Shown: positions 7,202 through 34,454 of the stretch, piece by piece
How the letters are laid out: the number at the start of each line of letters is the position of its first letter
Numbering within the stretch: the stretch's first letter is position 1
Source: Flavobacterium aquidurense
GTDB lineage: Bacteria > Bacteroidota > Bacteroidia > Flavobacteriales > Flavobacteriaceae
Direction of reading: 5' to 3'
Assembly (NCBI GenBank): GCA_900107365.1
Contig: FNPS01000002.1
Location: 496,001-560,000 of the forward strand
DNA: 64,000 bases
Notes under the pieces: model-generated
Seen by the model: the letters and a program-made list of their open reading frames with translations, nothing else
What the model was told of the DNA's origin: nothing
Databases searched by the model: none
Translations under genes and position numbers: made by a program

Positions 7202-7960
7202 TTATCTCGTAAAAACCAAATGATTTCCTTTAGAAAGATTCGCATCAAACTGATAACCTTCATAATTGAAACCTTTTAAGTCATCAATAGTTTCCGCATT
7301 AGTATCGATAATATAACGTACCATCATACCTCTCGCCTTTTTTGCAAAGAAACTAATCATTTTTAATTTCCCATCTTTGTAATCTTTAAAATCCGGAGTG
7401 ATTACAGGAACTTTTAATGTTTTTACATCAACTGCTGAAAAATATTCGTTACTGGCTAAATTCACAAACAGCTCTCCTTTTGTCAACTCTTTATTCAACG
7501 CTTTTGTAACGGTTGGCTTCCAGAATTCATGTAAGTTTTTGTATTCACCTACTGGCATTTTTGTTCCCATTTCTAAACGGTATGCCTGCATTAAATCCAG
7601 TGGTTTTAAAACACCATAAAGTCCCGATAAAATTCTAAGTTTATCTTGTAATACTTCTAATTTTTCTAACGGAATAGTATAAGCATCCAATCCGGTATAA
7701 ACATCACCATCAAAAGTATAAACAGCCGGGCGTGCATTTTCAGGAGAAAAAGGCGTTTTCCATTTTTGATTACGCTCCCAGTTTAAATCAGACAACTTTT
7801 CAGAAATAGACATTAATTCAGACAATTCTGCTGGTTTTTTAGTCTTTAAAATTTTGTGAACCTGGCGCGCTTCTTTTAAAAAAGACGGTTCAGTATATTG
7901 AGTAGTTGGTAATTCTTTTTCGAAATTCAGTGACTTCGCAGGCGATATAACAATTTTCAT
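7202..7960 (-). CDS. yaaA: Peroxide stress protein YaaA (UPF0246)
   Basis: A 252-residue cytoplasmic protein beginning MKIVISPAKSLNFE, the diagnostic start of the YaaA family. Other conserved blocks include YTFDGDVYTGLDA, LSGLYGVLKPLDLMQAYRLEMG, VNLASNEYFSAVD and FFAKKARGMMVRYI. In E. coli YaaA lowers free iron and protects DNA and proteins during peroxide stress; the fold binds DNA. It is a single gene on the minus strand. CAAAAATA at 7981-7988 gives a TATTTTTG -7 box on the minus strand upstream of the start. Confidence 0.95.
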   Translation of the reverse strand: MKIVISPAKSLNFEKELPTTQYTEPSFLKEARQVHKILKTKKPAELSELMSISEKLSDLNWERNQKWKTPFSPENARPAVYTFDGDVYTGLDAYTIPLEKLEVLQDKLRILSGLYGVLKPLDLMQAYRLEMGTKMPVGEYKNLHEFWKPTVTKALNKELTKGELFVNLASNEYFSAVDVKTLKVPVITPDFKDYKDGKLKMISFFAKKARGMMVRYIIDTNAETIDDLKGFNYEGYQFDANLSKGNHLVFTR

Positions 7961-8069: not shown

Positions 8070-8749
8070 GCCACGAATTCACGAATTTCTTTTTTTTGAT
8101 TTTGATTTGTGAAATTCAGCGTTAAGTTTTTTGTTTTAATAGAATTTAATCCTAAAAATATGAATTTGTTTAAAAAAGTAAAGATTTGATTGTAAAAGGC
8201 GTGTTCTATGTTGTAAATTTGCAACTATAAAATTCCAAATAACATTTCAATATATAATTGAAAGTTGTATTCTAAATAATGGCCACGAATTAACGAATTA
8301 ACTTTTTAAAAATTAATTAAAAAATTCGTGAATTCGTGGCGGAAAAATTTAGGCAATGACAAAAATATTATATCAACTGGAAAGTTATCAAATAATGGGA
8401 ATTTTATTTGATGTTCATAGAAATTTAGGTGGAGGTTTTTCTGAAATCGTATATAAAGATGCTTTAGAATATGAATTCAAAAAGGCAAATATTCCATTTG
8501 AAAGAGAAAAAGAATATTTGGTAAATTATAAAGACATCATATTGGATCACAAATTTTATGCTGATTTTGTTTTGTTTGATAAAATTATACTTGAAATAAA
8601 ATCAAGTGATTTTCTGCATCCAAAGCACATTTCACAATGTCTAAATTATCTTAAAGTTTCGAAAACACATTTAGCAATTTTAGCAAACTTTAATTCTTCC
8701 TCACTTGAACACAAACGTATTATTTTATAAAAATTACTGAATTCGTGGC
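8070..8749. repeat. CACGAATT-repeat-bounded cassette containing a GxxExxY gene
   Basis: The left edge is GCCACGAATTCACGAATTT at 8070-8088. A near-perfect inverted pair at 8282-8299 and 8323-8340 forms an 18-bp stem (one mismatch) just upstream of the GxxExxY ORF. A further inverted copy, GAATTCGTGGC at 8739-8749, follows directly after its stop codon. The units have period 8 (CCACGAAT, TCACGAAT). So the ORF sits between inverted copies of the same repeat, the outer pair about 680 bases apart. From 7961 to 8355 I see no other credible gene; a TAAATTTG at 8214-8221 is a possible promoter, which would put the hairpin in the mRNA leader. Confidence 0.7.
8356..8730 (+). CDS. GxxExxY family protein
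   Basis: A 124-residue protein with the motif GFSEIVYKDAL that names the GxxExxY family, followed by FEREKEYLVNYKD, the FYADFVLFDKIILEIKSSD block and LNYLKVSKTHLAILANF. The D...EIK arrangement is reminiscent of PD-(D/E)xK nuclease folds, so a nuclease-like fold is possible (inference); no function is established. The gene lies inside a repeat-bounded cassette, with a hairpin ending 16 bases before its ATG and another repeat copy 9 bases after its stop. It sits directly against the cca gene downstream. Confidence 0.85.
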   Translation: MTKILYQLESYQIMGILFDVHRNLGGGFSEIVYKDALEYEFKKANIPFEREKEYLVNYKDIILDHKFYADFVLFDKIILEIKSSDFLHPKHISQCLNYLKVSKTHLAILANFNSSSLEHKRIIL

Positions 8750-10175
8750 TATACAAACAAACTATAAAACAGCTTTACAACATAAAATCTTCGGAGTTAT
8801 TTCGAAAGCATCTCAGGAACTCAACGTTGACAGTTACGTTATTGGAGGCTTTGTTCGTGATTTGCTTTTAAAGCGAGGTTCTAAAAAAGACATTGACGTT
8901 GTTGCCGTTGGAAGCGGAATCGAATTGGCTTTGAAAGTTTCTGAATTACTTCCGAAAAACCCAAAAGTACAGGTTTTTAAAACCTACGGAACGGCAATGC
9001 TTCGTTTTGAAGATACTGATATAGAATTTGTTGGTGCCCGAAAAGAATCGTATAATTTCGACAGCAGAAACCCGATTGTCGAAAACGGAACACTTGAAGA
9101 CGATCAAAACCGTCGTGATTTTACGATCAATGCTTTGGCATTATCATTAAACGAAAAAACATTTGGAGATCTCTCTGATCCTTTTGATGGATTGGCGGAT
9201 TTGGAAAACAAAACTATCAAAACGCCTTTAGATCCAAGTATTACGTATTCCGATGATCCTTTGCGAATGCTTCGTGCCATTCGTTTTGCCAATCAGTTAG
9301 GTTTTGAAATCGAAAAAAATTCCCTCGATGCCATTACGAAAAATGCGGAGAGAATTAAAATCATTTCGGGAGAAAGAATTGTAGATGAATTGAATAAAAT
9401 TCTTTCGACAGATAAACCGTCAATCGGATTTTTACTTTTATACCAAACCGGACTTCTGGATATTGTTCTTCCTGAATTAACAGCTTTAAATCAGGTAGAA
9501 GAAATTGAAGGTCACACCCATAAAAACAACTTTTACCACACATTAGAAGTTGTAGATAATATTTGTCCAAATACAGATGATGTTTGGTTGCGTTGGTCTG
9601 CATTATTACACGATATTGGAAAAGCACCGACAAAACGTTTCACTAAAAAACAAGGCTGGACTTTTCACGGACATGAGTTTCTTGGTGGAAAGATGGCAAA
9701 GAAAATATTTGAACGTTTGCACATGCCATTGAATCACAAAATGAAGTTTGTGCAAAAAATGGTGATTATGAGTTCGCGCCCAATTGTCTTGGCACAAGAT
9801 ATTGTAACGGATAGCGCCGTTCGTCGTTTGGTTTTTGATGCCGGCGAAGATGTGGAAGATTTAATGACATTATGCGAAGCTGATATCACAACTAAAAACC
9901 CAGCAAAGTTTAAGAAGTATCATAAAAACTTTGACATTGTCCGCAAGAAAATCGTTGAAGTGGAAGAGCGTGATCATGTCCGTAATTTTCAACCGCCAAT
10001 TTCTGGTGAAGAAATCATGGAAATTTTCAATTTAAAACCTTCCCGAGAAATTGGAGTTTTAAAAGAAGCTGTAAAAGAAGCCATTTTAGAAGGTGATATT
10101 CCAAACGAATATCAGGCTGCTTATGATTTTATAATCAAAAGAGCTGAAAAAATGGGTCTAAAAAAAGGTGCATAG
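8745..10175 (+). CDS. cca: CCA tRNA nucleotidyltransferase with HD domain
   Basis: Adds or repairs the 3' CCA of tRNAs. The nucleotidyltransferase core shows VIGGFVRDLLLKRGSKKDIDVVA (split here: GGFVRD and the DID metal-binding carboxylates), then RRDFTINALAL and the DPLRMLRAIRFANQL block. A C-terminal HD domain (LLHDIGKAP) is usual for class II enzymes with phosphohydrolase activity. Length 476 residues is normal. No ATG is available near the expected N-terminus; the best start is GTG 8745, which lies inside the CACGAATT-type repeat (minus reading of CCAC). No tRNA in this window encodes CCA, so the enzyme must be essential. Confidence 0.93.
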   Translation: MAIQTNYKTALQHKIFGVISKASQELNVDSYVIGGFVRDLLLKRGSKKDIDVVAVGSGIELALKVSELLPKNPKVQVFKTYGTAMLRFEDTDIEFVGARKESYNFDSRNPIVENGTLEDDQNRRDFTINALALSLNEKTFGDLSDPFDGLADLENKTIKTPLDPSITYSDDPLRMLRAIRFANQLGFEIEKNSLDAITKNAERIKIISGERIVDELNKILSTDKPSIGFLLLYQTGLLDIVLPELTALNQVEEIEGHTHKNNFYHTLEVVDNICPNTDDVWLRWSALLHDIGKAPTKRFTKKQGWTFHGHEFLGGKMAKKIFERLHMPLNHKMKFVQKMVIMSSRPIVLAQDIVTDSAVRRLVFDAGEDVEDLMTLCEADITTKNPAKFKKYHKNFDIVRKKIVEVEERDHVRNFQPPISGEEIMEIFNLKPSREIGVLKEAVKEAILEGDIPNEYQAAYDFIIKRAEKMGLKKGA

Positions 10176-23648: not shown

Positions 23649-23651
23649 TTT

Positions 23652-24152
23652 TGAGATTCTAAGGTTCTGAGATGCTAAGGTTCTAAGGTTTTTTATTTTG
23701 AGGGTTTTTTCTTATATTTTAATTAATTTTATCAAATTAATTAAAATATATAAAAATGAGCAATTTTAGAAGCCTCCTTATCTGGCAAAAATCAATGGCC
23801 TTGACCACAAAAATTTATTTTTCAACCAATAATTTCCCAAAAGAAGAAATCTTTGGATTAACTTCACAAATTAGACGTAGCTCGATATCTATTCCCAGCA
23901 ATATTGCAGAAGGATTTGGAAGAGAAAGTGATAAAGAACTTTTAGGCTTTTTAAACATTTCTGTTGGATCTTTATTCGAAATGCAAACACAATTAGAAAT
24001 CGCAAAAAACATATCTTATTTAAAAGAATACGATTTTAATAACTTATACGAGGACAGTCGCGAAGTAGAAAGAATGTTAGTTTCTTTCATTAAAAAAATA
24101 AAAGATCGAAACTAAACCTCAGTACCTTAGCATCTCAGAACCTCAGTACCTA
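23652..24152. repeat. Inverted-repeat cassette enclosing a four-helix-bundle gene
   Basis: The left arm (23655-23692) is a period-8 array (TTCTAAGG, TTCTGAGA, TGCTAAGG, TTCTAAGG). The right arm (24115-24152) is its inverted counterpart. Aligned over 38 positions they match at 33, with a shared 19-base core AGGTTCTGAGATGCTAAGG. The enclosed 420 bases hold one gene, that of the four-helix-bundle protein. In RNA the arms would form a long stem with the gene in the loop, as known for intervening sequences in 23S rRNA. The left arm starts just after the upstream PRiA4-like stop; the right arm ends 8 bases before the next ATG. Confidence 0.8.
23756..24115 (+). CDS. Four-helix-bundle protein (23S rRNA intervening-sequence protein family)
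   Basis: 119 residues. The family start SLLIWQKSMALTTKIYF, the signature SSISIPSNIAEGFGRESDKE and the GFLNISVGSLFEMQTQLEIA helix are all present, so this is a clear member of the IVS/S23 family. First found in intervening sequences inside bacterial 23S rRNA genes, homologues are also common elsewhere in genomes; their function is unknown (a pentameric RNA/DNA-binding role has been suggested). Here there is no rRNA: the gene sits alone between inverted octamer arrays. The stop codon touches the right arm. Confidence 0.93.
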   Translation: MSNFRSLLIWQKSMALTTKIYFSTNNFPKEEIFGLTSQIRRSSISIPSNIAEGFGRESDKELLGFLNISVGSLFEMQTQLEIAKNISYLKEYDFNNLYEDSREVERMLVSFIKKIKDRN

Positions 24153-24160
24153 AAAAAAAT

Positions 24161-34292: not shown

Positions 34293-34452
34293 AAGGTGCT
34301 AAGGGACTGAGGTTCTAAGATTTTTTTTTATTAGGTTCAAAGTTACAAAGGTTTTTCAGCCACGAATTCACGAATTTTTATTACAAATAATTCGTGAATT
34401 CGTGGCTAACTTTTTTCTTAGAACCTTAGCACCTCAGCATCTTAGAACCTTA
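34293..34452. repeat. Nested hairpin of two octamer-period repeat types
   Basis: Outer arms are TTAGAACC-type arrays: GGTGCTAAGGGACTGAGG onward (34296-34325), then inverted units at 34417-34450 (TTAGAACC, TTAGCACC, TCAGCATC, TTAGAACC, exactly period 8). Inside sits a CACGAATT-type pair: a 19-bp perfect stem between 34358-34376 and 34389-34407. It separates convergent genes, so it may act as a two-way terminator. Confidence 0.8.
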
Positions 34453-34454
34453 AA

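Follow-up and report, generated by a model that had tools for sequence, protein, structure and literature searches.

Genes and repeats between yaaA and cca

The stretch of DNA analysed here (64,000 nucleotides from Flavobacterium aquidurense, hereafter the window) holds a small gene of the GxxExxY family between a yaaA and a cca-like gene, together with copies of the repeat word CACGAATT. The features of the locus, with coordinates in the window, are the following:

7202-7960, minus strand: yaaA (PF03883), from the open reading frame and profile
8070-8089, plus strand: left repeat copy GCCACGAATTCACGAATTTC, two 8-base words, read from the sequence
8189-8223, plus strand: probable relic of a Sua5/YrdC gene (match to its 3′ end; identical at 32 of 35 bases to the end of the gene in locus L091)
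8281-8340, plus strand: complete CACGAATT hairpin, 5′ of the GxxExxY gene, from sequence and fold
8356-8730, plus strand: GxxExxY gene, 124 amino acids, Cas4/RecB-like PD-(D/E)XK fold, from profiles, model and alignment
8736-8749, minus strand: right repeat copy ACTGAATTCGTGGC, first word eroded (ACTG), second word intact
8745-10175, plus strand: cca-like gene with poly(A) polymerase head, RNA-binding and HD domains, from the open reading frame and profile

The word CACGAATT occurs 12 times on the two strands of the window, about fourfold above chance (mean 3.09, maximum 9, in 100 dinucleotide-preserving shuffles). The original prediction placed the GxxExxY gene between inverted copies of this repeat, and all three repeat places are indeed present, with slightly adjusted edges. 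On the upstream side there is one double word and one complete hairpin, the latter (8282-8340) folding as single-stranded DNA with -18.3 kcal/mol (z -7.64), while the downstream side holds one intact word preceded by an eroded one. In order to compare loci, a flank score was used, defined as the best inverted likeness between approximately 250 bases upstream and downstream of a gene, with a cut of 28, which corresponds to the 99th percentile among 428 shifted controls. The window locus scores 23 and falls under this cut; with its eroded downstream arm, the window copy has no clean pair of ends. The GTG at 8745, situated within the right repeat copy, opens the cca reading frame as listed, and this right-arm GTG seems to serve as the predicted cca start codon in the clade of the window. 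A repeat arm may in this way have turned into part of a housekeeping gene.

In regard to the protein, the reading frame at 8356-8730 matches PDDEXK_3 (PF13366; E 3.8e-33, 114.7 bits vs a curated cut-off of 22) and GxxExxY (TIGR04256; E 1.3e-37, 128.7 bits vs a curated cut-off of 35). The active-site acids and lysine, D70, E80 and K82, are invariant in 40 sequences. A sequence search for solved homologues with E up to 1 gave none; the structure model (pLDDT 96) is matched in Foldseek by nucleases of the PD-(D/E)XK fold. Among solved structures, 4ic1, titled SSO0001 and taken here to be a Cas4, matches best (Foldseek E 1.5e-4, Z 10.6, rmsd 3.1, 98 residues), and entries titled Cas4, such as 4r5q, rank below it. 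The model therefore fits a predicted DNA-acting enzyme, sharing its fold with Cas4/RecB-type nucleases. In Cas4, four cysteines hold an iron-sulphur cluster, whereas the GxxExxY protein is shorter (124 amino acids) and has a single cysteine, and thus lacks the four-cysteine site.

The F. aquidurense genome (5.44 Mb) contains 11 GxxExxY matches at ten loci, L010 and L011 being two fragments of a single gene; for one of these genes, the closest named relatives belong to Flavobacterium. A phage or plasmid origin was considered and rejected, since a search with one paralog gave no hit among 50,697 phage records and hits in 6 of the 72,556 plasmid records. In Sphingomonas (L237), a GxxExxY gene lies between fabD and fabG, within the fatty acid synthesis cluster.

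History of the cca joint

The relic upstream of the GxxExxY gene matches the Sua5 gene end with a score of 55, compared with at most 32 in 500 mononucleotide shuffles, and a similar stretch is visible in the clade. The matched gene, typed as PF01300, precedes GxxExxY in more distant relatives. Because this 35-base stretch matches the end of a Sua5 gene in 32 bases, the ancestral gene order, as read from sequence comparison, was probably Sua5, GxxExxY, cca. Furthermore, GxxExxY adjoins cca in at least 42 of the 147 genus genomes having a cca match (41 full matches, 1 partial). Such adjacency rules out a recent cassette insertion at this site, and the copy in the window is best read as old and vertically inherited, with a downstream arm that has decayed.

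Among the 28 closest genomes, the gene is present at cca in 6 and absent in 22, with 27 of the 28 joints readable and one genome broken by a contig end. Joints of yaaA and cca devoid of the gene, which the original prediction expected in relatives, are therefore found in these 22 genomes, and most of them have kept repeats, in the form of CACGAATT or CACAGATT arms; nearly all retain the right-hand word next to cca. Among L074 and other yaaA-cca joints, one relative has a different palindrome, ATCCCGATAGCTATCGGGA, in place of part of the repeat beside cca; this palindrome also recurs within other hairpins.

A dispersed hairpin family

Genome-wide, the double word CACGAATTCACGAATT was found in 112 copies with at most one mismatch (59 forward, 53 reverse), and its reversed control in none; copy counts come from exact or one-mismatch patterns, which miss diverged copies. 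Considering 100 of these 112 places, 74 make 37 forward-then-reverse pairs with starts not more than 130 bases apart. Fourteen double-word places were inspected: 11 form complete hairpins whose loops leave no room for a gene, and three are single or same-direction copies. The word CACGAATT is thus the mark of one dispersed hairpin family. The original prediction suggested a genome-wide list of the genes between inverted CACGAATT arrays; most copies enclose none (74 of 100 places being short-loop pairs).

As a candidate mover of these hairpins, RAYT was considered and rejected: none of the 11 Y1 transposase loci of the genome holds the CACGAATT double word, single words occur far off in two of them, and the flanks of 10 were inspected. 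Some Y1 transposase genes (L042, L043, L049) are flanked by unrelated palindromes of their own.

Framing of GxxExxY genes across loci

Framing above the cut of 28 is widespread in the GxxExxY family. In a public genome scan, it was found at 55 of 78 usable loci (80 loci, two dropped for short flanks), and in the genus at 52 of 60 loci, chosen by rank as one block of 40 and one of 20, some listed places having been passed over by hand. Of the loci L089-L112 (24), L090, an irregular copy, and L109, which is not beside cca, were left out, and among the resulting 22 cca-adjacent orthologs, examined with shorter flanks, 20 exceed the cut and the remaining two score 28 and 26. Repeats are accordingly present at the GxxExxY genes of relatives, as anticipated. 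In the F. aquidurense genome itself 8 of 10 loci are framed, the others being L010 (28) and the window locus (23). Loci at or below the cut amount to 23 of 78, 8 of 60 and 2 of 22 in the three GxxExxY sets, 14 of 27 for IVP genes (described below) and 3 of 6 for plasmid loci.

Control genes from the same loci and the window exceed the cut in 14 of 308 cases, the 308 including the window gene itself (score 23), and genes next to GxxExxY, kept apart from the controls, do so in 5 of 130. The 14 framed controls comprise 9 IVP/four helix bundle genes, 3 RuvC-like frames, 1 MmcQ/YjbR and 1 doubtful open reading frame, ten of them profile-checked (window gene counted) and the rest named by eye. Outside Bacteroidota, framing was observed in a Gemmatimonadota plasmid record (score 104) and in bins named Pyrinomonadaceae (73) and Leptospiraceae (37), the bin names being possibly wrong.

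The arms differ among loci. At the nine other GxxExxY loci of the genome, inverted arms built of CGCAAGG, CGCAGATT, CACAAAG, TTAAG, CATAG, CACAGATT and other words were recognized by eye. Read from the arms in the same way, the period ranges from about 8 to 11 bases, beyond the period-8 arrays suggested as a trait of the class. The proposal of a cassette class of repeat arms with a small protein is supported in part: the class exists far beyond the window, and CACGAATT is not its mark.

IVP genes as a second framed family

A second repeat-bounded small family had been noticed in the same window, and this was borne out, with arms of a different word:

23649-23689, plus strand: left arm flanking the IVP gene, with words of the CTAAGG type
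23756-24115, plus strand: second framed gene, 23S_rRNA_IVP/four helix bundle protein (PF05635, E 6.9e-39)
24116-24156, minus strand: right arm flanking the IVP gene, directly 3′ of its stop codon

By sequence, the window IVP protein matches the solved structures 2gsc and 2rld. Eight of the 11 IVP matches in the F. aquidurense genome exceed the cut (the lowest score being 20), as do 13 of 27 usable loci in a Bacteroidota sample (2 of 29 dropped), compared with 1 of 107 shifted controls.

Occupancy of orthologous joints and nesting

Two joints were compared across genomes. In the first, between genes that we take from their reading frames to be thiG and thiH, 26 genomes hold a GxxExxY segment with CGCAGATT-type arms (15 genomes), a gene-less CGCAAAG hairpin (10) or nothing (1), and one of the 15 gene carriers, G091, has both the GxxExxY segment and the CGCAAAG hairpin in the part inspected. 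Among the matches listed, pieces matching its arms turn up at numerous further sites of these genomes. The copy in F. aquidurense (G000; locus L002) has one internal TAG, and the frames of 14 relatives are uninterrupted. At the second joint, on contig 8 of G000, 17 genomes hold an exact CACGAATT hairpin (5), nothing (2) or other or mixed words (10). Filled and empty sites thus exist at orthologous places of both joints, the empty ones in 2 of 17 and 1 of 26 genomes. The loop of the contig 8 hairpin runs in one direction in G000 and G057 and in the opposite one in G049, G114 and G052; such reversal of the loop with the arms in place distinguishes L205, L209 and L214 from L024 and L213.

Hairpins are also found one inside another, both at L024 and in the window, where the following structure is present:

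34295-34319, plus strand: left arm of the outer pair, by eye
34359-34406, plus strand: gene-less CACGAATT hairpin, enclosed in the loop between outer inverted arms of the CTAAG type, from sequence and fold
34417-34453, minus strand: right arm of the outer pair, by eye

The words of this outer pair (34295-34453) resemble the arms that frame the IVP gene at 23756.

At one joint ATATTTT flanks both sides, an AT-rich and weak candidate for a target duplication; no clean example was established at the joints compared, and no transposition event was seen there. The joint patterns mean gain, loss or replacement, in either direction.

Matched change of arm words and genome content

In the 22 cca-adjacent orthologs, the arms contain two words, and the lineages carry CACGAATT, CGCAGATT, CACAGATT, CGCAAATT or CACGAATA. 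The observed pairing of upstream with downstream arms at this joint was reached by none of 20,000 permutations, which leave shared ancestry uncontrolled. Inspection by eye indicates that the words within an arm tend to change jointly, which is more than simple stem pairing requires; mixed arms are seen as well, for example CACTGATT next to CACAGATT.

Exact double words of CACGAATT and CRCAGATT were counted in 150 genus genomes and compared with the locus words, assigned by eye, at 23 of the 42 loci adjoining cca, three of which have other words. Genomes with a CRCAGATT locus are richer in CRCAGATT than in CACGAATT in 10 of 10 cases, and those with a CACGAATT locus are richer in CACGAATT in 8 of 10, the exceptions being G026 and G074. 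Among the 28 close genomes, the median number of exact double words is 61.5 in the 6 with the gene vs 11.5 in the 22 without it (p 0.0011, relatedness uncontrolled). For a second word, CCACAGATTAAAAGGATTA, the medians of 27 in 7 gene-bearing genomes and 19 in 21 others do not differ significantly (p 0.088). For a subfamily whose arms are different, p was 0.03, and such copy counts are for this reason noisy. Likeness of proteins and likeness of arms are correlated across 138 framed loci of 170 (32 under the cut left out), with a Mantel r of 0.44 for all pairs (p 0.001) and of 0.13 (p 0.001) once loci with related neighbours are removed. Protein type therefore predicts arm type weakly, and the association is mostly via shared position.

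Interpretation and alternatives

Framing, spread, locus-specific words, matched change of arms, gene-less copies, nesting and varying occupants of joints are all observed. We consider the chances about even that the window locus belongs, as a member with a gene, to a broad class of mobile hairpin elements. According to such a model, an element would consist of two inverted arms, each with two to four tandem words of 8-11 bases, and of a loop that could be short, or hold another hairpin, or one small gene coding either for GxxExxY, Cas4-like with the PD-(D/E)XK fold, or for IVP. The framed protein would act on DNA hairpins of its own word type by cutting them, and repair after cutting would copy the arms or the whole element into another joint. 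The stem formed in RNA could make insertion inside operons harmless, and at the window locus the eroded downstream arm would now supply the start codon of cca. That the proteins drive the movement we infer, with one copy-number test positive and one not significant. We know of no nuclease activity of IVP, and a shared cutting mechanism therefore need not cover both IVP and GxxExxY.

Alternatively, the element could function at the level of RNA, the arms pairing in the transcript so that the gene lies in a stem loop cleavable by RNase III, and the protein having no part in movement. In line with this, GxxExxY lies between co-directional reading frames at 68 of 72 loci vs 148 of 225 control triplets, many of the loci being orthologous and not independent, and arms are near stop or start codons in the cases inspected. 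Moreover, a passage of PMC4990558 describes a Coxiella rRNA intervening sequence with an S23 reading frame in a stem loop cut by RNase III. However, pairing needs complementary arms and not like words within an arm, nor does it require that gene-less hairpins elsewhere share the word, and it leaves the differing occupants at one joint unexplained; moreover, yaaA, the neighbour on the upstream side in the window, has the divergent orientation. We regard this alternative as unlikely.

It could also be that another enzyme moves the arms and that the GxxExxY and IVP genes became trapped between two such arms. Framed genes are far fewer than gene-less hairpins with the same word, and one frame is common to two unrelated protein families, both of which would suit such capture. 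Yet the Y1 transposase genes of the genome, which would be the first candidates, have other palindromes beside them if they have any, and in 0 of 11 cases the CACGAATT double word; a concentration in two families, with IVP making up 9 of the 14 framed controls, would also be unexpected. We find genes as mere captives improbable.

Template switching is known to turn quasi-palindromes into perfect ones, and tandem-word palindromes might grow and stay matched by this process and slippage, acting as terminators, with framed genes as a by-product; as this explains neither the concentration of framing on two gene families, nor words common to unlinked places of one genome, nor differing occupants at one joint, we consider it very unlikely.

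Returning to mobile hairpin elements that carry their own small gene, a wider version can be put forward more tentatively, as a possibility to which we give somewhat less than even chances. GxxExxY and IVP would be alternative resident genes of bacteria-wide selfish tandem-word hairpins, each GxxExxY lineage would recognise, spread and homogenise its own word, and rRNA intervening sequences would be the members that landed in rRNA genes. A single class of framed hairpins would in any case offer one account of two widespread protein families without an assigned role, of large numbers of unexplained hairpins between genes and of how rRNA intervening sequences arose.

Comparison with known systems

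No description of the framing of GxxExxY or IVP genes was found in open papers, including the accessible portions of PMC4990558, PMC3936711, PMC11270868, PMC3733652, PMC12306157 and PMC5524665. Six of the repeat words, as letters, were not found in open papers, and the same is true for the combination of four helix bundle protein, inverted repeats and intergenic position. Palindromes were counted in two Flavobacterium genomes in a study whose available sections do not name GxxExxY or IVP (PMC12306157). IVP genes are reported inside cas operons in part of PMC3936711, and these could alternatively be read as elements inserted between operon genes. The framing of most GxxExxY loci examined, and of IVP genes as well, with words that differ from place to place, points to a widespread, little-described type of mobile hairpin in bacteria.

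Two known systems come closest. The REP/REPIN sequences with RAYT genes (REPtrons, TIRtrons) are dispersed short palindromes with a gene flanked by inverted copies, and their palindrome bears a GTAG tag at one end, as stated in excerpts of PMC3733652. The likeness lies in a gene that stands between copies of a palindrome dispersed in the genome. In contrast, the hairpins described here have no GTAG tag, the complete ones inspected being GCCAC...GTGGC or GTGGT, their arms are tandem words of 8-11 bases, and no Y1 (HUH) transposase was found with the word, the protein being of the PD-(D/E)XK or four-helix bundle type.

The intervening sequences of 23S rRNA carry a small reading frame in the loop of terminal inverted repeats, and their origin is called unclear, both according to passages of PMC4990558. 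Those with S23/IVP resemble the present loci in having a reading frame within an inverted-repeat loop (20 of the 22 cca-adjacent orthologs being above 28, and the window locus, with its eroded arm, at 23), and the IVP genes studied here are likewise framed, at intergenic sites. On the other hand, the window locus is intergenic, between yaaA and cca, and not inside an rRNA gene, its protein is GxxExxY and not IVP, and its arms are tandem words shared with gene-less hairpins. By the features that define them, the framed hairpins belong neither to the REP/RAYT nor to the rRNA intervening sequence family.
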